18,040 nucleotides of DNA, taken from the NCBI GenBank assembly GCA_022825185.1, contig JAJDYK010000351.1, positions 1-18,040 of the forward strand, in the 5' to 3' direction. Shown piece after piece: positions 17 to 18,040 of this stretch (within the stretch, counting starts at the first letter, position 1; the number at the start of each line of letters is the position of its first letter). Position numbers and translations under genes: made by a program. Source of the DNA: Candidatus Latescibacterota bacterium (GTDB lineage Bacteria > Latescibacterota > UBA2968 > UBA8231). The notes below the pieces were generated by a model. The model saw only the letters and a list, made by a program, of their open reading frames with translations. It made no database searches and was not told where the DNA came from.

Positions 17-1042
17 ATGAACACACCAAACCTACCCGAGGATTACGCACGTCTCCTCGCAGACGTGAAGGAGCGCGTCCGCGCTGCCCAGTACGCAGCT
101 CTCAAGGCGGTGAATAAGGAGCTAGTCGGTCTGTACTGGGATATTGGTCGGATGATCGCGGAGCGGCAAAAGGTCGAAGGCTGGGGCAAGTCGGTGGTTG
201 AACAACTGGCCAAGGATCTGCGGGCGGAATTTCCCGGTGTGCGGGGATATTCTGCCCAGAACCTATGGTATATGCGGCAGTTTTTTCTGGAATACCATGA
301 AGATGTAAAACTCCAACCGCTGGTTGGAGAAATCAGTTGGGCCAAAAATTTGGTTATTATGGGGCGCTGCAAAGACCCGCTAGAGCGGGAATTCTACATC
401 CGCATGACCCGTAAGTTCGGCTGGACGAAAAGTGTCCTCATCCACCAGATTGAAAACCAGAGTTATGAAAAGTCCCTTTTGGGCCAAACCAACTTCGACC
501 AAGCCTTGACGCCGGAACTGCGCGCCCGTGCTCAGCTAGCGGTCCGCGACGAATATACGTTCGACTTTCTCGCGCTGGGCGACGAGCACGGCGAACGGGA
601 ACTGGAAAAAGCCCTCATTGCCCGCGTCGAGGACTTCCTGCGCGCCATGGGAGGGATGTTCGCCTTCGTTGGGAGTCAGTTCCGGCTGGAAGTGGGCGGT
701 AAGGAGTACTTCGTCGACTTGCTGTTATTCCACCGTCGTCTGCGCTGCTTAGTGGCGATTGAGCTGAAGGTTGGCGAGTTTCAGCCAGAGTTCGTAGGGA
801 AAATGCAGTTTTACCTGACCGCTCTCGACCGGCAGGTGCGCGAAGAGAGCGAAAAGCCATCCATCGGTATCATCCTCTGTAAAGAAAAGAACCGGACAGT
901 GGTCGAATACGCCCTGCACGACGCCGGCAAGCCCATGGGCGTGGCAACCTATCACATCAGCAAGCAACTGCCTAAGGAACTCAAAGGTCAATTGCCGTCG
1001 CCACAGGAAATTGCCCGACTGCTGGAGATTAAGGACTTGTGA
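17..1042 (+). CDS. YhcG/DUF1016-family PDDEXK nuclease
   Basis: 341 residues, complete. The start ATG follows a strong AAGGAGG ribosome site at about 4-10. The N-terminal part (about 8-150) is the helical, winged-helix-like DUF1016 N domain, recognisable by the segment LVGLYWDIGRMI (37-48) and by YSAQNLWYMRQF (78-89). The C-terminal part (about 170-330) is a PDDEXK nuclease fold: E225, D234 in FVDLLLFHR, and the E249-L-K251 pair in VAIELKVGEF, followed by KMQFYL (262-267), typical of the family. All catalytic positions I can place are intact. Family members are thought to act as DNA nucleases linked to restriction, recombination or mobile DNA, but the exact substrate is not known. It stands alone here, with no methylase or partner beside it. 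Family assignment is firm; biological role is inferred. Confidence 0.93.
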   Translation: MNTPNLPEDYARLLADVKERVRAAQYAALKAVNKELVGLYWDIGRMIAERQKVEGWGKSVVEQLAKDLRAEFPGVRGYSAQNLWYMRQFFLEYHEDVKLQPLVGEISWAKNLVIMGRCKDPLEREFYIRMTRKFGWTKSVLIHQIENQSYEKSLLGQTNFDQALTPELRARAQLAVRDEYTFDFLALGDEHGERELEKALIARVEDFLRAMGGMFAFVGSQFRLEVGGKEYFVDLLLFHRRLRCLVAIELKVGEFQPEFVGKMQFYLTALDRQVREESEKPSIGIILCKEKNRTVVEYALHDAGKPMGVATYHISKQLPKELKGQLPSPQEIARLLEIKDL

Positions 1043-3787: not shown

Positions 3788-4864
3788 ATGAGCAAGTGGA
3801 AAATCGCCGGGATCAACTTCGACCATCTGCACATGGGCGACAATCTGCGCATGGCCTTTGAGCACGCAGACGTCGAGATCGTCGGCATCTGCGACGAGCA
3901 GCCCGAGCGCATGAAGCAGGCGTGCGAGGATTTCGCCATTCCAGCCGACCGGGTTTTCAGCGACTACCGGGAATGTCTGGAAAAGACCCAGCCGGACATC
4001 GTCCTCTTGTGCCCGGCTACCGCCGAACACGGGGAGTGGACCGAAAAGGTCGCGCCTTTTGGCGTACACATCATCATGGAAAAACCCTTCGCCGCCACCC
4101 TCGCCGAGGCGGACCAGATGCAGCGGGCCATGGAGGGGACGGGCAAATTGTTGGCGATCAACTGGCCGCTGGCTTGGTATCCACCGCACCGCACGGCGCG
4201 GCGGCTCATCTCCGAAGGCGAGATCGGCGAGGTGATCGAAGTCCACTACTACGACGGCAACCGAGGGCCGCTGTGGCACCTCGCCGACAAAGTGGAGCGC
4301 ACCGCCGACGTCGTCGAGCGGGAAAAGCCCACGAGTTGGTTTTACAAAAAGGAGGCGGGCGGCGGCTCCCTGCTGGACTATCTAGGCTACGGCACCACAT
4401 TGGGCACCTGGTACATGGACGGCCGGGCACCAATTGAGGTGACAGCCACCGTAGATCAGCCCCAAGGACTCGAAGTAGATGAACACTGCATTGCGGTGGC
4501 GCGCTACGAACGGGGCCTATCGAAATTCGAGACGCGCTGGGGCACCTTTACCGACCCCTGGACCCTGCAACCCCAGCCCAAGTGCGGCTTCGCGATCGTC
4601 GGCAGCGAAGGCACGATCAGTTCCTACGACTACGAGGAGGTAATCCGCGTGCAGACGCGGGCGCAGCCAGCGACCGAGGAACGGCCGGTGGACGCGCTCG
4701 AACCGCCGTTTCAGAATCCCGTCCAGTACGTGATTCACTGCATCGAACAGGACCAACCCATCGAGGGGCCGCTCTCGCCAGCGCTGTGCCGCATCGGCCA
4801 ACAGATCGTCGATACGGCCTACCAGAGCGCCGCGCAGAAGCGCACGTTACCGCTGATTCAATAG
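3788..4864 (+). CDS. Gfo/Idh/MocA-family oxidoreductase (atypical nucleotide and catalytic motifs)
   Basis: 358 residues, starting 3 nt after the methyltransferase stop, so probably translationally coupled. The N-terminal Rossmann half ends with IIMEKPFAATL, where E98-K99-P100 is the family EKP motif holding the catalytic lysine. The C-terminal half begins near IGEVIEVHYYDGNRG and contains GGGSLLDYLGYGTT (191-204). Two features are odd. The usual GxGxxG loop at the N-terminus is replaced by AGINFDHLHMGD, and the catalytic histidine normally found in a GGGxLxDxGxH segment is not present. This may be a specialised subfamily with a different reaction. These enzymes usually oxidise or reduce sugars or cyclitols with NAD(P). 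The neighbouring paralogue keeps standard motifs. Confidence 0.88.
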   Translation: MSKWKIAGINFDHLHMGDNLRMAFEHADVEIVGICDEQPERMKQACEDFAIPADRVFSDYRECLEKTQPDIVLLCPATAEHGEWTEKVAPFGVHIIMEKPFAATLAEADQMQRAMEGTGKLLAINWPLAWYPPHRTARRLISEGEIGEVIEVHYYDGNRGPLWHLADKVERTADVVEREKPTSWFYKKEAGGGSLLDYLGYGTTLGTWYMDGRAPIEVTATVDQPQGLEVDEHCIAVARYERGLSKFETRWGTFTDPWTLQPQPKCGFAIVGSEGTISSYDYEEVIRVQTRAQPATEERPVDALEPPFQNPVQYVIHCIEQDQPIEGPLSPALCRIGQQIVDTAYQSAAQKRTLPLIQ

Positions 4865-4866
4865 CT

Positions 4867-5985
4867 ATGGCAGAAAGCCAAGACAGCGGCTATGGCCGAG
4901 GCAAAACCGGGTCGGAGACCGCAGTAGCAGCCCCGGATTTGCCCTACCAGCCGCGCGATCCAGCGACCTATCGTCCGCAGATCGGCCTGATCGGCTGTGG
5001 TGGCATCTCCGAGATGCACTTGCGGGCCTATAAAAACGCCGGCTATGAGGTCGCGGCCCTGTGCAGCCGCGACCAGGGACGCGTCGAGCAGCGGCAGCGG
5101 CAGTTCTACCCCGAGGCCGATACATACCTCGACTATCGGGATCTGCTCGCTCGCGACGATATCGAGGTGGTGGACGTTACGCCCCATCCGCAAGAGCGGC
5201 TGCCGATCCTTGAAGCGGCCATTGACGCGGGCAAACACGTCCTCAGCCAGAAGCCTTTTGTGCTCGACTTGGATGTGGGCGAGGCGCTAGTTGCCCGGGC
5301 AGAGCGGCGCGGCGTGCAACTGGCCGTCAATCAGAATGGCCGCTGGGCACCGCATTTTAGCTACATGCGCCACGCGGTGGCCGCCGGCTTAGTCGGCCAA
5401 GTGCAGAGCGTCGAGTTCGCCGTGCACTGGGACCACAACTGGATTGCTGGGTCCGCTTTTGACGCGGTGGAAGATCTGGTGCTCTACGATTTTGGGATGC
5501 ACTGGTTCGATATGGCGACGGTACTCTTGGGCAGCGAGACGCCGCAACGGGTCCACGCCTCAGCCCGACACGCAGCCGACCAAGACGCCAAACCGCCGCT
5601 TTTGGCCCAAGCGGCGATTGAGTGCGCGGGCGCACAGGTGACTATCTTCTTTGATGGCAACACTCGCCAAGGCCAACAGGACCGCACGTATCTGGTCGGC
5701 ACGGAGGGCACAATAGGGGCTAGCGGCGTGGATTTGACGGAGCAAGAAGTCGTCTTGTACACCGCAGCAGGAGTAGCCCGGCCGCAGCTTGTGGGGACGT
5801 GGTTTGAGCAGGGGTTTCACGGAACTATGGCCGAACTACTCTGCGCTGTCGAGGAGGGCCGCGAGCCTAGTAACAGTGCCCGTGCCAATCTCGCGAGTTT
5901 AGCACTGTGTTTTGCAGCCGTGGCGAGCGCCCACCGTGGCGAGCCGATAGTGCCGGGGACGGTGCGGCGATTGCCTGGCCATTAA
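4867..5985 (+). CDS. Gfo/Idh/MocA-family oxidoreductase (canonical motifs)
   Basis: 372 residues from the ATG at 4867, 2 nt after the preceding stop codon. The reading frame is open much further upstream (to 4582), but that stretch overlaps the previous gene and is not homologous. The first ~36 residues are a polar, proline-rich extension before the Rossmann fold begins. GLIGCGGISEMHL (40-52) is the NAD(P)-binding loop. LSQKPFVLD (126-134) is the EKP-equivalent motif with Q in place of E and catalytic K129. YDFGMHWFD (207-215) supplies D208 and H212, the usual catalytic pair. Likely an NAD(P)-dependent sugar or inositol dehydrogenase acting in the same pathway as its upstream paralogue; substrate unknown. 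Confidence 0.92.
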   Translation: MAESQDSGYGRGKTGSETAVAAPDLPYQPRDPATYRPQIGLIGCGGISEMHLRAYKNAGYEVAALCSRDQGRVEQRQRQFYPEADTYLDYRDLLARDDIEVVDVTPHPQERLPILEAAIDAGKHVLSQKPFVLDLDVGEALVARAERRGVQLAVNQNGRWAPHFSYMRHAVAAGLVGQVQSVEFAVHWDHNWIAGSAFDAVEDLVLYDFGMHWFDMATVLLGSETPQRVHASARHAADQDAKPPLLAQAAIECAGAQVTIFFDGNTRQGQQDRTYLVGTEGTIGASGVDLTEQEVVLYTAAGVARPQLVGTWFEQGFHGTMAELLCAVEEGREPSNSARANLASLALCFAAVASAHRGEPIVPGTVRRLPGH

Positions 5986-6033: not shown

Positions 6034-6882
6034 ATGGATGCAACCTGCCTGCAATATACTTTGACTGAGGAGGAGCGCCGCCAATTTGAGGAGGACGGCT
6101 TCTTCATCGTCCGCGATGTGCTGCCCTTGGATTTAGTAGCACAGCTCATCCCCATAGTCGATCGCCTCGACGCCGAGGCCCGGCGACAAAAGGGGTTGGA
6201 AAAGCACCAGATGCACAACTTTTTCGACTTTATCGGCAAAGACGAACTCTTTTTGGAGTTGCTCGACTGGCCCAAGACATTCGCCAAGGTATTTGGGATT
6301 TTGGGCTGGCACATTCAGCTCTACCACACGCACTTGATCGTCACTCCACCTTTAGACGGCGTCGTGCCCGCGCGCAAGCGGCTGGGCTGGCATCAAGACA
6401 GCGGACGGCTCAACATCGACATGGAAACTGAGCCCCGGCCGAGGGTTTCGCTCAAGGTGGCGTATTTTCTCACGGATTGCACCGAGACCAATCGCGGCAA
6501 CTTCCACGCCGTGCCCGGCTCGCACCTAAAAAACAAGCTGGAAATGCCAGCGGACGAGGACTTAGACCCAGCAGGCGCAACACCGATCCAAGTAGCGGCG
6601 GGCGACGCGGTATTTTTCGACCGGCGCATCTGGCACGCAGCCGGCCACAACTCATCGCCCGATGCGCGCAGGGCGCTGTTCTACGGCTATAGCTACCGCT
6701 GGTTGCGACCGCGCGACGACATGACGGTGGAGCACCTGATGGACCGCTGCGACCCCATCCGCCAGCAGCTACTAGGTGCCGGCCCAAGCGGCGGGCACGG
6801 CTACACTTCGCCGAAAGAAGAAGACGTGCCGCTGAAAGCGTGGATCCGCGAGCATCTGGGTGAAGAAGCAGTGGTTCAGTAA
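6034..6882 (+). CDS. Phytanoyl-CoA dioxygenase (PhyH) family Fe(II)/2-oxoglutarate oxygenase
   Basis: 282 residues; the start ATG is preceded by GGAGG at 6023-6027. The double-stranded beta-helix oxygenase signature is visible: H120-x-D122 in LGWHQDSGR for iron binding, then the distal histidine in IWHAAGHNSS (H201 or H205), and an arginine of ARRALFYGY (R212/R213) suited to binding 2-oxoglutarate. FHAVPGSHL (157-165) is the typical PhyH strand. The N-terminus (EEERRQFEEDGFFIVRDVL) matches the family opening. Expected to hydroxylate a small substrate using O2 and 2-oxoglutarate; substrate unknown. It is the last gene of the + strand run and ends 3 nt from the convergent polymerase-like gene, with no terminator visible between them. 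Confidence 0.92.
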   Translation: MDATCLQYTLTEEERRQFEEDGFFIVRDVLPLDLVAQLIPIVDRLDAEARRQKGLEKHQMHNFFDFIGKDELFLELLDWPKTFAKVFGILGWHIQLYHTHLIVTPPLDGVVPARKRLGWHQDSGRLNIDMETEPRPRVSLKVAYFLTDCTETNRGNFHAVPGSHLKNKLEMPADEDLDPAGATPIQVAAGDAVFFDRRIWHAAGHNSSPDARRALFYGYSYRWLRPRDDMTVEHLMDRCDPIRQQLLGAGPSGGHGYTSPKEEDVPLKAWIREHLGEEAVVQ

Positions 6883-6885
6883 AAC

Positions 6886-9800
6886 TCAGTCCGCCGTCAG
6901 TCCCACAAAGAGCCTGCTGAACAAGCTGGTCAGCGGCTCGACCTCGCCGCGCTCGACCGCCCTAGCAAAGACTACACCCGGCTGTGCAGCCCTAGCAGCA
7001 CGGCCCAAAACGTGGTAATCGGCACGAGCGGGCTGTTGGGCCGCTTCCCGCGCCTCGCTCCAGCCCTGGTTGGTGGCAGCCAAACCCCATAAGGCACGCG
7101 GGGCACGCACCTTGGCTTCCTCCACCGACAGGCCGTCGCGCCAACAACCGCGCTGGGCGAATAGGCCGCCATCTTCCCGATAGATTAACCCACCGCCCAC
7201 GTATTGGATCAACTGCTGTTGGTTGCCCCGCGCCCCCGACAGCGACAACAGGGCCAAGGGCCCCAAGTCGTTGTCGTCGAAATCGGCCTGCTGGTAGAAA
7301 GCCGCCACTAACTCGTCGCCATACATTTGCCACTCATCCCAATCGGCTTCTTTGGGTTGCTCAGGCCACTCCTTGCTCGAACCGAGGAAGGGATTGAAGG
7401 AGGCCCCCGACTGCTTGCAGACCTCAAAGCCGCGCCGCGTCAACTGGTCGAGTACCTCCAGTGCTCGCTCTAGGCCCTCGCGCTGCATCACCTGAGCTAA
7501 TAAGCGGTTGAGGTCGTGCTTGGAAAATAGCCGGCTGCCATCCACGGCCATTCCGGTCAATTCCTCCACTTCAGCGCGGCCGTCCTCCGTGCGGCATAGC
7601 TGCGCCAAGCCCCATATCGTGCCGTGGTAGTTGTCGGTCACGTAGCGCCATATATCTGCATCGCGCTGTATGTGCCCGGCCACCGACAGCGCGGTTCCGG
7701 CTTCGGCCTGGGCTTCCTCAGTGAGGGGCAAAAACACCTCGATCTGATCGCCGTCAAAATCTAGCTCCATCAGTCGGCAAACGCGCGGATGGACGCGCAC
7801 GGCGGCCCCGGCCAAACGCTGTGGACGAAAGGCCATCACCGCGGTGGACGCCGGGCCATCGTCAACCAGCACCCGCTGGACGCTGTACAGCAGCACCCAC
7901 GAGCGCGCCATGATCGCGTCCAGAACCTCAGCCGCTCGGGGCGAACGCGGGGCCACTTCCTCGGCGCGACCCATCTCCCGCTCTACCTGAGGCCCGAACA
8001 AAGCCCAAGCCATCTCCTCGGGCAGGCCCACTTGGTCAAGCTCCAACTCAAAACCCGAGACAAGCGCGGCCCGGCCGCTAAACAGCGGTCTGGCCCGGAA
8101 GTGGAGGTGCTCCGGGCGCAACAACGCGGCAAAAAAATCCTCCACCCGTTGGGTCACCTGCGCCACTGCCGGTCCGACCAGAGCCTCGGGTGCCTCACTA
8201 TCGACGATGCGTTGCAAGCGCGTGTTGGCTTCGACCAAATCCTCGTAGCAGTCTCGGATCGGGTCGAATTCGGCTCCTGCGGGCAAGGCAACGGGAGTTC
8301 CCACCGTCCCTACTTGGCGTCCTGGGCCCACTTGGCGTCCTGGGATCCATGGGTGCGGCACTGGGCGGGCCAAGGTCAGTCCCTCGGGCTCGGCAAAGGA
8401 AAAGCGCAACTCCTCGCTCGCTAACTCGGCCCGTATCCCGACCATACCTAACAACTGCTGCAGCAGGGCAAAGCGGGGGGACGGGGGCGGGGCTGGAGAT
8501 ACTGGGCCGGTGGTTAGGCGCTGACTTAGCCCATCGGCGTCGGGCCGCTCAGCCGCGGCCGTGTTGAACAAAGCGTGGATATTGGCTACGGCCCCGGCCT
8601 CGCACAAAGCTCCGTAGGTCATCATGTCGAGCTCTGGTCCGCCAGCTCCTGCCACCGCAGTTTCCAAGCGCTCGGCCGCGGTGTGGGTCCGCCCCCAGTA
8701 CACCCAACCCACGGTACTGCGATAGGGCAGTTTTGCGCCTTTGAGGATCAGTTGCTCCATGCCGTCTTCGGACAGTGCCGCCGCCGCCAGACGCGCTTTC
8801 AACGTCTCTTCGCTGGGTGCTTGAAAAGGCGGCACCACCGCCGGAGTCCCCTCGGCTTGGGCAATGCGACCCATGACCGCCTCGCGCTGCTGGCCGAAGT
8901 TGAGCCGCGAGACCATACTGGTCGGACTGAAGATGAGCTCTATCGGCGCACCATCGGGCAACTGCGGCATGTCGGCGTCGGGCAGGATGCGCGTCACCAC
9001 TCCCTTGGCACCGTGGCGGTTGCTCAGGCGGTCGCCCTCCCCCACTGCGGTGGGAAAATCCATCCGCGCCGCGGCCGACTCGCTAATGACTAAGCCATCC
9101 TCAAACGTGTCCCCGTCCCACATGATGAAGGCGGTCAACAGATTGTAGCCACCCCAAAAATCGGCGGCTTCGGGCTCGTATCCCGTCTGCACTAGGGCCG
9201 GCTCTGGTTTGTTGCCCTTGGAGGCTAAGCGCTGGTCGTGCTGCTGGCGGAACCAACCCGTGTCGTGAATCGGTGCTGCTGTGTCGGCGGCGCTTGTCCA
9301 CTGGCGCATCATATTGATGCCCATCAGAGCGCGATTGGTATCGTCGTGTTCGAGAAAGGGCACCATGGAGGCCGAAAAACCCAAGATGCTGTCGGGCGCT
9401 TCGTCGATCCGTTCGAGCTTGCCGTCGCGGATGCGGGCACCGCGGGCTACTTCCAGCACTCGGCCGATATTGGGCCCCTCGGGAGTGCAGTGGGGGCACA
9501 CTAGGCCGTATTGGCTGTCGGGGAAAACGTCTCGGTCGTCAAAAGGCTCACCGACGATGGGGATCAAAGTCAGCCGTCGCAGATGAGTATAGCGGTCGAG
9601 CCAGTTGGTCGCCTGTAGATACTGCGAAGTTGCCTCCAAGTGGAAGTCGCGCATCCAAGCGTCTAAGGGCAGCCAATTCCTCACTAGGTCGTCGTCCCAA
9701 GCCAACTGCTCGGGGGCCGCCTCCAACCTCTGGTCAATAAAGTCGTAAATCTGCTCGCCCACGCACAGAATGCGCGCTTGATCGAGTTCGCGCCGGTCGG

Positions 9801-10059
9801 GATAGGGGACCACGACCCGATAGTTGCCCTCAATGCGGAAAAGACCATCGCGGTCGGGCCGAGGCAAATCTCGGTACTCAACCTCGACTGAGGCATCGCC
9901 GAGTCCCAAGCCCAGTTTAATGGAAAAAGTATAGGAGTCCTGTTGTTCGACCTGGTAATCGGCCAGCGGCAAGCGCTCGCCCAAAAGCCGGGGCAGTCGC
10001 TGGTAGATGAAAAGGTCAAAGGACTCCCTATGCCAAGGTACGTCGAGATTCAATGTCAT
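6886..10059 (-). CDS. Single-chain fused beta-beta' RNA polymerase-like protein (compact)
   Basis: 1057 residues, starting at 10059 with GGAGG (complement of 10067-10071) upstream; its ATG overlaps the sigma gene's stop. RpoB-like half: a beta1-lobe GLFRIEGNYRVVV (72-84); a Rif-pocket segment THLRRLT (158-164); CPHCTPEGPNIG (188-199); FLEHDDTNRALMG (235-247); FEDGLVISE (319-327); GDRLSNRHGAKGV (342-354); SRLNFGQ (384-390); and the C-terminal LLQQLLGMVGIRAEL (532-546). RpoC-like half: LARPVPHPWI (563-572), a clamp coiled coil (about 602-640), SGRAALVSG (661-669), VGLPEEMAWALF (677-688), VRVHPRVC (755-761), the catalytic DFDGD (D767, D769, D771), GFEVCKQSGAS (877-887), SGARGNQQQL (941-950) and a bridge-helix-like RDGLSVEEA (974-982). 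Beta flap, beta' zinc ribbon and trigger loop appear absent. The intact aspartate triad suggests RNA synthesis; this is inferred. Normal subunits are ~1300-1400 residues each. Confidence 0.9.
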   Translation of the reverse strand: MTLNLDVPWHRESFDLFIYQRLPRLLGERLPLADYQVEQQDSYTFSIKLGLGLGDASVEVEYRDLPRPDRDGLFRIEGNYRVVVPYPDRRELDQARILCVGEQIYDFIDQRLEAAPEQLAWDDDLVRNWLPLDAWMRDFHLEATSQYLQATNWLDRYTHLRRLTLIPIVGEPFDDRDVFPDSQYGLVCPHCTPEGPNIGRVLEVARGARIRDGKLERIDEAPDSILGFSASMVPFLEHDDTNRALMGINMMRQWTSAADTAAPIHDTGWFRQQHDQRLASKGNKPEPALVQTGYEPEAADFWGGYNLLTAFIMWDGDTFEDGLVISESAAARMDFPTAVGEGDRLSNRHGAKGVVTRILPDADMPQLPDGAPIELIFSPTSMVSRLNFGQQREAVMGRIAQAEGTPAVVPPFQAPSEETLKARLAAAALSEDGMEQLILKGAKLPYRSTVGWVYWGRTHTAAERLETAVAGAGGPELDMMTYGALCEAGAVANIHALFNTAAAERPDADGLSQRLTTGPVSPAPPPSPRFALLQQLLGMVGIRAELASEELRFSFAEPEGLTLARPVPHPWIPGRQVGPGRQVGTVGTPVALPAGAEFDPIRDCYEDLVEANTRLQRIVDSEAPEALVGPAVAQVTQRVEDFFAALLRPEHLHFRARPLFSGRAALVSGFELELDQVGLPEEMAWALFGPQVEREMGRAEEVAPRSPRAAEVLDAIMARSWVLLYSVQRVLVDDGPASTAVMAFRPQRLAGAAVRVHPRVCRLMELDFDGDQIEVFLPLTEEAQAEAGTALSVAGHIQRDADIWRYVTDNYHGTIWGLAQLCRTEDGRAEVEELTGMAVDGSRLFSKHDLNRLLAQVMQREGLERALEVLDQLTRRGFEVCKQSGASFNPFLGSSKEWPEQPKEADWDEWQMYGDELVAAFYQQADFDDNDLGPLALLSLSGARGNQQQLIQYVGGGLIYREDGGLFAQRGCWRDGLSVEEAKVRAPRALWGLAATNQGWSEAREAAQQPARADYHVLGRAARAAQPGVVFARAVERGEVEPLTSLFSRLFVGLTAD
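8309..8344 (-). repeat. 18-bp tandem duplication inside the polymerase-like gene
   Basis: Two adjacent 18-nt copies (8309-8326 and 8327-8344) match at 17 of 18 positions and keep the frame, giving the doubled peptide GRQVGPGRQVG around residues 574-584. It falls in the linker between the RpoB-like and RpoC-like halves, where length changes should be tolerated. Confidence 0.85.
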
Positions 10060-10655
10060 TCGTGTTCCTCCGGGTTATGAATGGCCTGCCAGGCCCGTGA
10101 AAGTTGACGGCGACCGTGGTGCAGCCGCGACTTTACGGTGCCTTCGGGAATGCCCAAGCGTTCGGCCGCGTCCCGCACTTCTACTTGGGCGTCGTAGATC
10201 AGACGGAAAACTTCGCGCTTGTCCTCGGACAGCGCTTGTACTTGTCGCCGCAGCCAGCGCTGCTGGTCGGCCCGTTCGACTTGGGCGTCGGGGCGTTCGG
10301 ACGCCGCCTCAATCATCCACTCGGGCACTTGCTGCGTCTCCTGCTCCACGGTTTCAGACAGCATTTCTAGCCGCTGCTCTCGCCGCCTTCGCACGGTGCG
10401 CAGGTGAGTCAGGGAAAGATGAGTGGCAATGCTAAACAGCCAGCTAGCCGCAGAGCCTCGACCGCTCCATTGACCGGCCCGGTTCCAGACCCGCAAGAAA
10501 ACCTCCTGCACTACATCGTTGGCACTCGCATCGTCGCGAACGATGCGGCGCACATGGCGGAGGATCTGCTCTCGATAGCGTTCAAAGAACTGCTGGAACG
10601 CGCAGGCATCGCGTTCTTTTATTTGCGCTATGAGTTGTGGGTCCGGTATCTGCAT
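10056..10655 (-). CDS. ECF-family RNA polymerase sigma factor, coupled to the polymerase-like gene
   Basis: 199 residues when started at the ATG at 10655, where the family-type sequence begins (PQLIAQIKERDACAFQQFF). The frame is open to 10793 and ATGs at 10733 and 10793 are possible, but the extra residues do not resemble sigma factors. Sigma region 2 spans about 18-92, with the core-binding helix DVVQEVFLRVWNR (47-59) and promoter-melting/-10 helix SWLFSIATHL (71-80). Region 4 spans about 135-188, with LSEDKREVFRLIY and the helix-turn-helix IPEGTVKSRLHHGRRQL. The stop TGA overlaps the polymerase-like ATG in an ATGA. No anti-sigma gene is adjacent. Sequence shows a normal ECF factor; that it serves the linked single-chain polymerase is inferred from coupling. 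Confidence 0.9.
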   Translation of the reverse strand: MQIPDPQLIAQIKERDACAFQQFFERYREQILRHVRRIVRDDASANDVVQEVFLRVWNRAGQWSGRGSAASWLFSIATHLSLTHLRTVRRRREQRLEMLSETVEQETQQVPEWMIEAASERPDAQVERADQQRWLRRQVQALSEDKREVFRLIYDAQVEVRDAAERLGIPEGTVKSRLHHGRRQLSRAWQAIHNPEEHE

Positions 10656-10756
10656 CGAGGCTCTCTGCAAGTAAAGACGCCGCCCGGAAAGTACAGGTTC
10701 AAAGACGAAGGTGAAAAAGTCCGGAAATCTCATTGAGGGCCAGTTTCCCCCTTGAG

Positions 10757-10784: not shown

Positions 10785-10807
10785 ACCACCCACCGCCTGA
10801 AAACCAA
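10780..10807 (-). promoter_or_regulatory. Putative promoter of the sigma/polymerase-like operon
   Basis: On the - strand, TTGGTT (complement of 10802-10807), a 16-nt spacer, and TAAGAT (complement of 10780-10785) form a sigma70-like promoter upstream of all three candidate sigma starts that lie below it. Its -10 box overlaps the -10 box of the divergent promoter on the other strand. Placed by eye only. Confidence 0.4.
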
Positions 10808-10834: not shown

Positions 10835-11791
10835 ATGAGTCTAACGCCAGCCCAACTCGACCAATTCCACCGCGACGGCTATATCATCGTCCCTGATCTG
10901 TTCTCCGCCGACGAGATGGATGATGCTCTAGCGGCGATGGAACAGATTTTCTACGGCCAATCCTTCCAGCAGTGGTTGGCCGATTGCGACCAAGGCGACG
11001 CCTCCGGGGTCTCGGATGGCTTCACCACCACGCACGACCACTCCGAGGGCCGCTCGCAATTTCCCGTGGGCGCGTCGGCTCTGGATCGGCTGATAGAAAA
11101 CGAGACCTATCTCGACGTCTTTGAGCAGTGCCTAGACTCAAAAGCCAGCTACTGCAATGCCCACCTCTTCATGCGCTCGGGGCCTACTGACAAGCGCCAT
11201 CCCGACAACCCTTGGGAGGGCTACCACATTGACCACTACACCAATTGCCTGCTGCCGCCCCACGACCAAACAGGCCGTTTCGACTACGTCAACTCCGGGG
11301 TGTACCTGCACGATGTCGAAGACGACGGCGCTCCCATGCTGGTCATCCCCGGCTCGCACAAAGTAGCTGGTCCCGCTTTTGTGCGGGCGCTTGCCGAAGA
11401 CAACGCCGCGGGTGGGTCCTTCAAAGACCTGCGCCAAGCCACCGAACTGGCCGCTCCGGTCCCTGCCACTGGTCGGCGGGGGTCAGCTCTTTTGTACTCG
11501 TCGTACCTAGTCCACGCAGCCCAACCTTTTGCCAATAAGCGCACGCAGCGCGCCTTTTGGACTTTGTCCATGTGCCGCCGCGACAACGATCGCTGGACCC
11601 GGTTCGCCAATCCCTTCATGTACGGCGAACGCGAGCATATGCTGCCTTTCTTTACCACTACCACGCCTCGGGTGCGCGGCCTATTCGGCTGGCCCGAACC
11701 CGGACACCCGTACTTCACCAGCCAAACGCTAGACCTTTTGGAGCATACCCTACCCGGCATTGATACAGGTCCCTATCGCAATAACCGTTGA
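10835..11791 (+). CDS. Phytanoyl-CoA dioxygenase (PhyH) family Fe(II)/2-oxoglutarate oxygenase
   Basis: 318 residues, start ATG at 10835. The opening AQLDQFHRDGYIIVPDLFS is the standard PhyH N-terminus. Iron ligands are H131 and D133 in GYHIDHYTN and the distal H227 in YLVHAAQPF. The arginine needed for 2-oxoglutarate is in NKRTQRAFWT (R236 or R239). VIPGSHKVAGP (170-180) is the family's conserved strand and turn. It is only distantly similar to the oxygenase at 6034-6882 and is longer, so a different substrate is likely. The gene is transcribed divergently from the sigma/polymerase-like pair, 180 nt between start codons. The role of this pairing is unknown. Confidence 0.92.
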   Translation: MSLTPAQLDQFHRDGYIIVPDLFSADEMDDALAAMEQIFYGQSFQQWLADCDQGDASGVSDGFTTTHDHSEGRSQFPVGASALDRLIENETYLDVFEQCLDSKASYCNAHLFMRSGPTDKRHPDNPWEGYHIDHYTNCLLPPHDQTGRFDYVNSGVYLHDVEDDGAPMLVIPGSHKVAGPAFVRALAEDNAAGGSFKDLRQATELAAPVPATGRRGSALLYSSYLVHAAQPFANKRTQRAFWTLSMCRRDNDRWTRFANPFMYGEREHMLPFFTTTTPRVRGLFGWPEPGHPYFTSQTLDLLEHTLPGIDTGPYRNNR

Positions 11792-12067: not shown

Positions 12068-12997
12068 ATGTTTCGCGAAGCAATCGGTTTATTCGTCCCT
12101 GAACCAAAAGCCAAACTCTACATCCCCAAGAACAGTGGTCTGCATGAGTATGTGAACAATCTGCTGAGTGAAATTGGCGTCAGAAACGGAGGCGAGTTTA
12201 CCCGAACTGACGAGAGCGTGGGAACCCTCGAAATAATCTCGGCGCGCGGGGAGGACGTGCCCCAACGAGTTGACGATTGCCTCCTACGTGGGGAAGTCGC
12301 GTATGGCCTCACTGGAGACGATCTATTCGACGAGTACATGCTGGGCGCGGATGATTCTCCGCTTGGAGTTCTCAACACCTACGATTGGTTCGATCCAAGT
12401 GCTCAGTTTTATCGACCGGCCCTTTGTCTATTGAATCGCGAAGGACAGATTCCAGATTCGTCCGCAATGGTGTCCATTGCCGTGAACAAGAAATACGAAC
12501 TCTCCTCTCGCCAATTCCTGTCGCAGCGCTTCCAATCCAGCAAGCTGCAGATCAGTATCGTTGCTTATGCTGGAGACACGGAAAACACCGTAGCAGAGGG
12601 CACGCACGACTGGTGCGTCGAGGTGGTATATCGCGGAGAACGCTCGCCCACAAGCGCAATGTCCAAGACCGGACTCAAGGTCGCCGAGGTCGTCCGATTC
12701 AGCGACATCTCATTGATCGGACGAGAAATCGTCAATCCATGGGAAGAGGAGTACCGGAGAATATCCGCAGTCGCGCAAAAGCCCACCGGTTCCAGTACGT
12801 CAAAACTCCTTGCCGACAGCAATGAGATTTGCAAGAAGGTCGGCGAGGAATCCGCTGAGTTTGTGAGGGCATTTACCCAAGAAACGGGGATTCCAGAAGA
12901 GTTTAACGGCGTCGTATATGCGTTGATGGTCGCAGCCGCAAAACTGCAAGTCCCTTGGCAGGAAATCGAGGCGGACCTGAAATCTAGGTGGTCGTGA
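12068..12997 (+). CDS. HisG-like/HisE-like fusion protein with degenerate catalytic motifs
   Basis: 309 residues; AGGAG at 12057-12061 precedes the ATG. Residues about 15-225 resemble the ATP phosphoribosyltransferase HisG: a LYIPKNSGLHEYV start, ARGEDVPQRVDDCLLRGEVAYGLTGDDLFDE (59-89) matching the HisG segment that recognises its ligands, and a later TGLKVAEVVRFSDISLIGRE (201-220). The HisG PRPP loop is not conserved: the expected TG-containing acidic loop reads VYRGERSPT. Residues about 243-309 resemble the phosphoribosyl-ATP pyrophosphatase HisE/MazG fold: KLLADSNEICKKVGEESAEFV keeps the EExxE metal motif (E260, E261, E264), but the second metal motif's aspartate is replaced (EFNGVVYAL). 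It may be a diverged enzyme or binding protein outside histidine synthesis; no other his gene is in the window. Confidence 0.65.
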   Translation: MFREAIGLFVPEPKAKLYIPKNSGLHEYVNNLLSEIGVRNGGEFTRTDESVGTLEIISARGEDVPQRVDDCLLRGEVAYGLTGDDLFDEYMLGADDSPLGVLNTYDWFDPSAQFYRPALCLLNREGQIPDSSAMVSIAVNKKYELSSRQFLSQRFQSSKLQISIVAYAGDTENTVAEGTHDWCVEVVYRGERSPTSAMSKTGLKVAEVVRFSDISLIGREIVNPWEEEYRRISAVAQKPTGSSTSKLLADSNEICKKVGEESAEFVRAFTQETGIPEEFNGVVYALMVAAAKLQVPWQEIEADLKSRWS

Positions 12998-16614: not shown

Positions 16615-17022
16615 TTATCCCTGTCGGTACCGTTCCAGAAATTCGGCTGGAGATATGACTTTAACTCCTTGGTGGCTTTCGGCCGGATAGTGCCTGAGAT
16701 TGCCTGTGACTAGGTATTCCGCTCGTCCAGCGATAGCCGCAGCCAGAAACATGTCGTCATCAGGGTCTGGCAGGCTTGGGGATAACGGTCTTGCTCCTAC
16801 TAATTCTCCGCTAGATTCAATTTGCTCTAGAGACGCTTCCACTTGGTCTATGCCGAACGGGAAGGCAGGGCGCAATAGAACCTCCCGGTATTCGGCTAGA
16901 ATGCGTACGTCATAGCACAGAGACAAATCGCCCGTCGCCACCAATCGCACGATTTCGCCGGGTGGACCATAGGGGGCTAGCATACCGGAGACGAGGACGT
17001 TGGTGTCGAGGACGATCCTCAC
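16615..17022 (-). CDS. PIN-domain ribonuclease toxin
   Basis: 135 residues. The VLDTNVLVSGML opening (D6) is the PIN signature; further acidic residues are E44 (LAEYREVL), D86-D90 in PDPDDDMFLAAA, and the TGN turn (106-108) near the C-terminus. These residues bind Mg2+ and cut RNA in VapC-like toxins; the sequence places it in the 'putative toxin component, PIN family' group rather than classic VapC. Its ATG overlaps the antitoxin stop (ATGA, 17019-17022), the usual coupled arrangement. The target RNA is unknown. It ends 29 nt from the convergent nucleoside-hydrolase gene. Confidence 0.93.
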   Translation of the reverse strand: MRIVLDTNVLVSGMLAPYGPPGEIVRLVATGDLSLCYDVRILAEYREVLLRPAFPFGIDQVEASLEQIESSGELVGARPLSPSLPDPDDDMFLAAAIAGRAEYLVTGNLRHYPAESHQGVKVISPAEFLERYRQG

Positions 17023-17306
17023 CGGCGGAACCCTTTGCGCACGGCTTTGATTTCGGCCTCAATATCAGCAGCAGACAGACGGTCAGTACCTGCCTTTATG
17101 GACGCTTGCTGCATGGCGTTGACGGCGGCCAAAGCGCGGGTGCTACGCAGGGCAGCGAGCGATTCTTCCAGCAATTCTTCCGATGTCGCCGAAAGCAAGG
17201 CGATTGGCTTGCCATTGGAAGTGATTACCATCTCTTGCTCCTGCGCGAGTTCCTTCCAGATAGCAGCCGATTTCCCGCGCAATTCGCGGACTGAGACAAA
17301 GCGCAT
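17019..17306 (-). CDS. Phd/YefM-family antitoxin
   Basis: 95 residues; AAGGAG precedes the ATG on the - strand. The N-terminal ~50 residues (FVSVRELRGKSAAIWKELAQ, then MVITSNGKPIALLSATSE) form the DNA-binding Phd/YefM fold; the C-terminal half (about 55-95) is charged, helical and probably the toxin-neutralising part. It is expected to bind the PIN toxin and, with it, the palindrome over their promoter. The two genes overlap by 4 nt. Confidence 0.9.
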   Translation of the reverse strand: MRFVSVRELRGKSAAIWKELAQEQEMVITSNGKPIALLSATSEELLEESLAALRSTRALAAVNAMQQASIKAGTDRLSAADIEAEIKAVRKGFRR

Positions 17307-17402: not shown

Positions 17403-18040
17403 ATGGCCACCGTCGTCCTCACCGAAAAGCCCAGCGTGGCGCGCGACATTGCCCGAGTCCTAGGGGCCAACAAACGCGGCCAAGGCTACGTCGAAGGCAA
17501 CGGCTATATCGTCACCTGGGCACTAGGGCATCTCGTGCAATTCGCCGAGCCAGACGATTACGGCCCGCCTTGGAACAGCCGCTGGTCCTTTGCCCAGCTA
17601 CCGATGATCCCTGAGCGGTGGAAGCTCAAGACGACGCGCTCGACCTCCGACCAGTACCAAATCGTCAAAAAACTGCTCAACAGTCCCCAGACGGAGCGCG
17701 TCATCTGCGCCACAGACGCCGGCCGCGAGGGCGAACACATCTTTCGCCTGATCTACGAGCACGCCCGCTGCAAAAAGCCGTTTAGCAGGCTGTGGGTTTC
17801 GAGCCTGACCGACGAGGCGATTCAGAGCGGCTTCCGCGCCTTGCAGGAAGGAGCGGCCTTCGATCATCTTGCTGCAGCCGCACGGGCGCGCGGCCAAGCC
17901 GACTGGCTGATGGGCATGAACCTGACCCGCGCCTACACCGTCCACAACAAGGCGCTCTGCACCATCGGCCGCGTGCAGACGCCAACCCTATCCATGGTCG
18001 TCAAGCGCGATGCGGCGATTGCCAGCTTTGTAAAGGCGTA
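17403..18040 (+). CDS. topB: DNA topoisomerase III (type IA), N-terminal part, cut by the window end
   Basis: 212 residues visible, open at the right edge. The TOPRIM domain begins with TVVLTEKPSVARDIARVLG (E8 is the first acidic residue) and continues to ATDAGREGEHIFRLI, where D105, E109 and E111 supply the metal-binding residues; the DAGREGE form is typical of TopB-type enzymes. LTRAYTVHN and IGRVQTPTLSMVVKRD (188-203) are type IA family blocks after TOPRIM. The catalytic tyrosine lies further downstream, outside the window. It changes DNA linking by passing a strand through a single-strand break, decatenating DNA. No strong ribosome site is visible before the ATG. Full enzymes are ~650-850 residues. 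Confidence 0.93.
   Translation, partial: MATVVLTEKPSVARDIARVLGANKRGQGYVEGNGYIVTWALGHLVQFAEPDDYGPPWNSRWSFAQLPMIPERWKLKTTRSTSDQYQIVKKLLNSPQTERVICATDAGREGEHIFRLIYEHARCKKPFSRLWVSSLTDEAIQSGFRALQEGAAFDHLAAAARARGQADWLMGMNLTRAYTVHNKALCTIGRVQTPTLSMVVKRDAAIASFVKA

Follow-up and report, generated by a model that had tools for sequence, protein, structure and literature searches.

The 18,040-nucleotide stretch of DNA analysed here (the window; contig JAJDYK010000351.1 of a Candidatus Latescibacterota bacterium) carries on its minus strand a two-gene operon, in which the gene of an extracytoplasmic function (ECF) sigma factor is followed by that of a single-chain compact beta-beta' RNA polymerase. The general view is that a bacterium has a single core RNA polymerase, on which different sigma factors are exchanged. 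On balance we favour, at somewhat better than an even chance, the reading that this operon represents a second, probably active RNA polymerase, predicted to work with a sigma factor and a promoter of its own. The polymerase gene was singled out by a first-pass annotation made from the sequence alone, while the sigma gene and the promoter, neither of which was named there, are additions of the present study.

The polymerase gene is one uninterrupted frame of 1,057 codons with an ATG start (window 6886-10059, minus strand), as the first-pass annotation had described it, and the six RpoB and RpoC motifs listed there are all found in the translation in the same order. The search with RpoB and RpoC profiles that it had proposed gives RNA_pol_Rpb2_3 (residues 146-210), Rpb2_6 (341-457) and Rpb1_2 (740-789), each above the curated Pfam cut-off. 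In a profile-profile comparison by hhalign, 71 family members were set against canonical frames longer than 1,000 residues (72 RpoB and 74 RpoC), and the family aligns with 100% probability to both, at E 1.5e-64 to RpoB and 4.5e-47 to RpoC, covering about 500 RpoB and 480 RpoC columns; judged by these alignments, the resemblance is far above chance level. The NCBIfam models for bacterial RpoB, RpoC and fused beta-beta' give partial matches only, far under their full-length cut-offs, and among sequence matches to solved structures the best are bacterial beta chains, with beta' chains also in the best 60. Structure prediction, also called for in the first-pass annotation, yields from the 71-sequence alignment a model with a predicted local distance difference test score (pLDDT) of 92.9 and a predicted template-modelling score (pTM) of 0.90, by which the overall arrangement is confident; an earlier model from 18 sequences (pLDDT 73.6) is superseded. 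Since the VIA structural alignment covered mainly residues 1-549, the assignment of the beta' half rests on hhalign and on Foldseek rows such as 9e7y_D (560 columns, 4.6 A, 21% identity). By its barrel residues and Pfam domains the protein is a probable member of the two-barrel RNA polymerase superfamily, the type of the multisubunit enzymes (msRNAP). A PADLOC run gave no match for the polymerase, nor did an Rfam scan give any in the window.

Along the E. coli subunits, the family profile follows beta in order at residues 118-147 (a block insignificant taken alone), 495-579, 652-705, 790-824, 1056-1129 and 1177-1342, and after these beta' in order at 267-514, 569-639 and 719-795. The individual parts, all on the minus strand, can be placed on this alignment. 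The TPEGPNIG motif of the beta fork region (residues 192-199, window 9463-9486) maps to the 495-579 block, and the beta barrel motif GDRLSNRHGAKG (residues 342-353, window 9001-9036) to 1056-1129. The beta' clamp coiled coil, the predicted dock of sigma region 2 (residues 599-646, window 8122-8265), corresponds to beta' 263-309 and consists in the model of two long helices, 599-620 and 625-646. The DFDGD catalytic triad of the beta' barrel (residues 767-771, window 7747-7761) maps to beta' D460/D462/D464, and the bridge-helix region (residues 979-1007, window 7039-7125), a 29-residue helix in the model, is aligned to beta' 719-795. A conserved C-terminal motif, PGVVFARA..GEVDPL..SRLFVG (residues 1027-1054, window 6898-6981), was considered as the first half of a trigger loop and rejected, as hhalign instead places it, weakly (p 0.06), on beta' 1330-1354; it is thus a tentative equivalent of that C-terminal segment.

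The flap slot has 14 residues in all 71 members versus 112-271 (median 133) in 73 comparison enzymes, and the lobe slot 40-43 residues versus a median of 231 (47-346). By the family profile and hhalign there is no alignment to beta' upstream of residue 267, nor to the trigger loop, and beta' is lost before about residue 263 and mostly after the bridge helix, the trigger loop and the jaw included. On the whole, the alignments and the model describe one polypeptide in which the catalytic barrel regions of both subunits, the fork, the clamp coiled coil and the bridge helix follow one another as in the bacterial enzyme, and which is without lobe, flap, zinc finger, zipper, trigger loop and jaw.

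The active site is near-invariant in the family. In the alignment of 71 members, the positions that correspond to beta D814, R1106, E565, R678 and R687 show no change, and those that correspond to beta E813, beta K1073 and beta' D462 are kept in 69, 65 and 70 members respectively. This agrees with the catalytic aspartates having been noted as intact, DFDGD being present in the window protein at the residues given above; likewise homologues with intact DFDGD, the absence of which was to have pointed to a decaying fusion, are present in related genomes, with the whole triad kept in 62 of the 71. In addition, the ratio of non-synonymous to synonymous substitution rates (dN/dS) of the gene is 0.15-0.20 versus seven close relatives, which indicates purifying selection.

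The protein belongs to a family of its own. A protein search scored at least 7,992 candidates and returned at least 1,570 proteins at E <= 0.001, canonical subunits possibly among them; of the best 120 matches, with identities from 92 to 44%, 110 are 1,002-1,077 residues long and 10 are shorter pieces, and among them are records annotated as hypothetical proteins from Candidatus Latescibacteria, Gemmatimonadota, Candidatus Poribacteria and Candidatus Hydrogenedentes. The nearest genome compared (G001) has 27% of sampled words in common with the window. Its phylum is called here Latescibacteria-type because of two record identities: the 'Gemmatimonadota' protein P0027 is identical to that of locus L005 in genome G003, and the protein L099 of genome G021, which shares its phylum with G003, has an identical counterpart in a record bearing the name Candidatus Latescibacteria. 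The phylum of G380 is taken as the Poribacteria phylum; it includes G403, the protein of which (locus L139) is identical to the Poribacteria protein P0106. Polymerase matches are present in 22 of 64 genomes of the Latescibacteria-type phylum at E <= 1e-90, with 7 of 11 in the genus of G001, and in 11 of 84 genomes of the Poribacteria phylum at E <= 1e-100, while among the relatives of G001 the count is 23 of 386. The distribution is patchy, and some of the absences are not real; in G040, for example, the gene is truncated by the contig end. Full-length open frames are found in the two phyla down to about 41-44% identity, and the copy in G032 is in pieces, with a stop. Two further loci are incomplete: in G010 (L183, contig C605) the promoter and sigma residues 1-111 are left with no polymerase match on the contig, likely a joint loss of the pair, and in G003 (L185, contig C279) there is a second copy with the promoter, the whole sigma gene and polymerase residues 1-460 up to the contig end.

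The canonical RpoB/RpoC frames came from a contig scan, of which the best 80 matches (22-41% identity) were taken as such. A tree was built of 87 sequences, 14 of the family and 73 comparison enzymes (one being the fused L099), with no archaeal outgroup; the family is monophyletic in it (support 1.0, stem 0.85) and is 30-32% identical to every comparison enzyme, the own enzymes of four hosts included. On these grounds a recent copy of the host enzyme was considered and rejected. The four fetched host regions (G001, G028, G045 and G024) each have rpoB and rpoC of normal length (1,258-1,275 and 1,359-1,393 residues), which is in accordance with the proposal of a second polymerase made in the first-pass annotation.

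The sigma factor gene (window 10056-10655, minus strand; 199 residues from the ATG at 10655) overlaps the polymerase start by 4 nucleotides (ATGA, 10056-10059). Its product matches Sigma70_r2 and Sigma70_r4_2 in Pfam, and TIGR02937 (sigma70-ECF) at 101.6 bits versus a cut-off of 42.9; with regions 2 and 4 and no region 1 or 3 domains, it classifies by sequence as an ECF sigma-70 factor. In each of the 31 loci examined in the two phyla, a sigma relative is found upstream, in the same orientation. The 31 are made up of the window and 30 genomes; three more of the 33 genomes that match (22 + 11), namely G023, G032 and G393, were excluded because their matches begin inside the gene or are broken. 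In 26 loci the sigma gene was found by the gene-calling script and in the other five, overlooked by that script owing to greedy gene selection or a contig edge, by a separate search (in L013 just 79 residues of it, at the end of the contig). Where the two genes are adjacent, the distance between them is -22 to 324 nucleotides, while an intervening gene of 396-620 codons is present in four loci and one of 381 in L013. The next commonest neighbour family reaches 15 of 31 loci only. The pairwise distances of sigma factor and polymerase are correlated over 29 loci with r 0.98, a value reached in none of 2000 permutations.

Upstream of the sigma gene lies a predicted ECF-type promoter, TGAACCTGTACTTTCCGGGCGGCGTC (window 10676-10701, minus strand), with the -35 element TGAAC at 10701-10697 and the -10 element CGGCGTC at 10682-10676; its position makes the ATG at 10655 the likely sigma start, and a longer frame from a GTG at 10793 would cross it. 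The pattern TGAAC-N14-CGGnGTC was looked for 5' of the sigma gene in 33 loci (the 31 sigma loci minus L013, plus L183, L184 and L185) and is present in 32 of them, the exception, L138, having one mismatch; from simulated upstream regions the expectation is 0.005 loci. As the loci come from 11 genera and the window, the 32 are not 32 independent events. With other spacers, from 10 to 19, no match was found upstream of sigma genes, and with the spacing off by one base no operon promoter was among the matches listed.

The stricter pattern TGAACYT-N11-GCGGYGTC was searched in 38 genomes. In the 15 Latescibacteria-type carriers of the gene, exact matches occur only as operon promoters (13 sites in 12 genomes, G003 having two copies), the other three having the operon site with one mismatch; among 12 genomes without the polymerase gene, two (G463 and G466) have three exact matches. 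In 25 genomes of the Poribacteria phylum, an extended 36-nucleotide pattern with at most 3 mismatches gives 12 matches in 10 genomes, namely nine operon promoters, two before one other operon (G398 and G399) and one 3-mismatch site off the operon in G400. Of the 11 carriers it misses G400, in which the operon site has diverged downstream of the -10 element, and G393, in which the operon site was not found; it gives none in the 14 genomes without the gene and none in a reversed control. The second promoter of G398 and G399 stands before genes of two ABC-2 membrane proteins (L250 2099-5166, minus strand; L251 near 6390-9555, plus strand). Two conserved exact matches away from the operon (G001:C60:269860 and G027:C5:46874) lie inside longer opposite-strand frames and were set aside. 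A large regulon was also considered and rejected: counts with at most one mismatch are alike in genomes with the gene (11-48, the 48 of G028 coming mostly from two repeated sequences) and without it (13-41), so that only strict or extended copies are interpretable. In the genomes searched, strict copies are nearly confined to the sigma-polymerase operon, in scans of a kind that would miss weak promoter sites.

How the module might work can be outlined. Sigma region 2 docks on the beta' coiled coil in bacterial RNA polymerase. Here the sigma factor would dock through its region 2 on the retained, re-surfaced coiled coil, the changed residues of which may form a private interface for a private sigma factor; it would read the TGAAC/CGGnGTC promoter, and the small core would make RNA from it with the DFDGD metal site. 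We infer both the catalysis and the sigma binding, and the dedicated pairing, read from linkage and co-divergence, is putative. That the protein is an enzyme is preferred over the other readings mainly because the active site is near-invariant. The module would be mainly self-activating, given that strict motif copies are nearly confined to the operon, and in one Poribacteria genus it may also drive the ABC-2 transporter operon. With no trigger loop, the polymerase is expected to be less accurate, as reported for YonO. The more specific picture, of an orthogonal self-transcribing chromosomal module with a private promoter, sigma factor and 1,057-residue polymerase, feeding back on itself and with a second promoter captured in some lineages, is possible, though we give it a little less than an even chance.

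Several observations weigh against a second polymerase with a sigma factor of its own. The flap, zinc finger and zipper are gone, yet the promoter layout is that of an ordinary ECF promoter, so the host polymerase could use the sigma factor. In the ECF holoenzyme as described in PMC6411747, sigma region 4 wraps around the flap-tip helix of beta; the spacer DNA, rigid in its length, is contacted by the zinc-binding domain and zipper of beta'. In the coiled coil, several residues near constant in canonical beta' (70-72 of the 73 comparison enzymes) are substituted: the R271 equivalent is mostly Ala (46/71), R275 is Ala or Val (68/71), E295 is Ala or Thr (68/71) and M298 is mostly Gln (50/71). 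These changes equally allow a sigma-free core or a sigma trap. The triad is altered in 9 of the 71 members (four DFDGN, two NFDGD, and one each with Ser, Tyr and a middle Ala), and in the window protein Ser stands in place of beta' R425 and Glu in place of N458, positions at which 53 members retain the Arg and 39 the Asn. Close linkage, through linked inheritance, would alone yield the distance correlation too. Finally, there are few candidate target promoters outside the operon.

Some of these points would fit an active polymerase that is sigma-independent, the operon being transcribed by the host core with the sigma factor while the compact enzyme elongates primers or ends, or has special templates to copy. 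The altered coiled coil and the motif layout usual for ECF factors are consistent with it, as is the loss of the docking site for sigma region 4 (as described in PMC6411747). Against it, a sigma relative stands upstream in every locus examined in two phyla, while other neighbours vary, and the coiled-coil equivalents of N276 and R278 are retained in 69 and 67 of the 71 members; we consider it unlikely.

The main rival is a sigma trap, in which the polymerase-like protein makes no RNA and keeps the sigma factor bound to its coiled coil, to be released to the host RNA polymerase on a signal. ECF operons often encode an anti-sigma factor in the slot after the sigma gene. One such example is described in PMC3397946. 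The gene order and the 4-nucleotide overlap would suit a trap, and so would the ordinary promoter layout, a coiled coil retained where flap, zinc finger and zipper are lost, and the nine altered triads. Yet a trap would need neither the active-site residues, unchanged or little changed in most members, nor the bridge helix and both barrel regions, which are kept, and we regard it too as rather improbable. Least of all do we expect a decaying, functionless remnant of a duplicated and fused rpoB-rpoC, which the large domain losses and the broken or partial copies in G032 and G010 might suggest, since the gene is under purifying selection (with the low dN/dS given above), has full-length open frames in both phyla, with identities down to about 41-44%, and forms a clade about equally distant from all enzymes compared, those of the hosts included.

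The genomic setting of the operon is chromosomal. The first-pass annotation called the genome cellular-looking, and this is borne out by neighbours of chromosomal type, including a DUF1016/YhcG nuclease, methyltransferases, GFO/IDH/MocA oxidoreductases and two PhyH dioxygenases. A mobile-element origin is unsupported: a pattern-based scan of viral contigs, which finds only sequences sharing its two patterns, gave no relative, and plasmid and phage records had no place covering 80% of the query. The PhyH genes flank the sigma-polymerase pair on the opposite strand (window 6034-6882 and 10835-11791, plus strand), and elsewhere in the genus the pair likewise has relatives of one or both of these genes beside it. 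Further off are the nuclease gene (17-1042, plus strand), which matches the candidate defence family PDC-S02, a chain with HisG-like and PRA-PH domains (12068-12997, plus strand), a PIN-domain toxin with a Phd/YefM-type antitoxin (16615-17306, minus strand), and the start of a type IA topoisomerase (Toprim and Topoisom_bac; 17403-18038, plus strand) continuing past the window.

Other fused polymerases were also found. L099 (416-6355, minus strand, contig C268 of G021) encodes a chain of 1,979 residues with an RpoA-type domain, beta, beta' and a trigger-loop-like motif; its best 18 matches (P0243-P0260, 1,913-2,081 residues) all have the alpha domain, and by their domain content they form a family of alpha-beta-beta' fusion polymerases. 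In L100 (contig C540 of G058), a beta-beta' fusion frame open at the contig start (2-4426, plus strand) is overlapped by a next frame (4302-5087, plus strand) with SGARG and trigger-loop-like motifs, which may be a frameshift, a split gene or an assembly error. In addition to the fusions already known from Helicobacter and Wolbachia, P0261-P0275 and P0289-P0362 are other single-chain beta-beta' proteins of about 1,420-1,720 and 2,100-2,400 residues, some of which bear the names Patescibacteria or Paceibacterota.

Our literature searches found no description of the single-chain family reported here, an earlier mention in older surveys of unusual polymerases being possible. If our reading is true, the one-core picture would be broken by a further core, encoded in the chromosome and served by a sigma factor and promoter of its own. 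It would also show how much of the bacterial enzyme (flap, trigger loop, jaw and zinc finger) can be dispensed with in a polymerase that still works, and would offer a natural orthogonal expression system of less than 4 kb, promoter ready. A sigma trap, if true, would be a polymerase turned anti-sigma factor, likewise apparently new.

Compared with known systems, the family shares with the canonical bacterial core the colinear beta and beta' blocks, DFDGD triad, barrel basic residues, fork, coiled coil and bridge helix. It differs in being one chain of 1,057 residues instead of separate beta, beta', alpha and omega, about 31% identical to all compared, and in lacking the lobe, flap, beta' N-terminus, zinc-finger/zipper region, trigger loop and jaw. 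With YonO of phage SPbeta and YonO-like proteins it has in common a single chain of about 100-120 kDa and no trigger loop homology. YonO, compared by description, is prophage-borne with late-gene promoters, and its homology to msRNAP is given as limited to a few residues (PMC5467207), which fits the first-pass remark that known short single-chain enzymes do not retain RpoB/RpoC motifs; the present family, in contrast, aligns to RpoB/RpoC over most of its length and is chromosomal, with a sigma gene. The full-length fusions of Helicobacter and Wolbachia (PRK09603/PRK14844) also have beta and beta' in one chain and in the same order, but their models have 2,890 and 2,839 positions, against which the family scores 155 and 154 bits versus cut-offs of 5372 and 4632; at 1,057 residues versus about 2,800-2,900 it is not a full-length fusion. 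In the polymerase of yeast linear plasmids (virus-like elements, VLE; ORF6/ORF7), the large subunit likewise is beta plus part of beta', but by the account in PMC6211774 a second small subunit is required, and the element is a cytoplasmic plasmid related to poxvirus transcription. The crAssphage enzyme is a single-chain beta-beta' fusion too, set apart by its description as too divergent for the COG0085/COG0086 models (PMC7481178). Finally, the operon resembles those of ECF sigma factors with an anti-sigma factor in its sigma regions 2 and 4 and in the ECF-type motif before the sigma gene, and differs in that the second gene is here an RNA polymerase core, not an anti-sigma factor.

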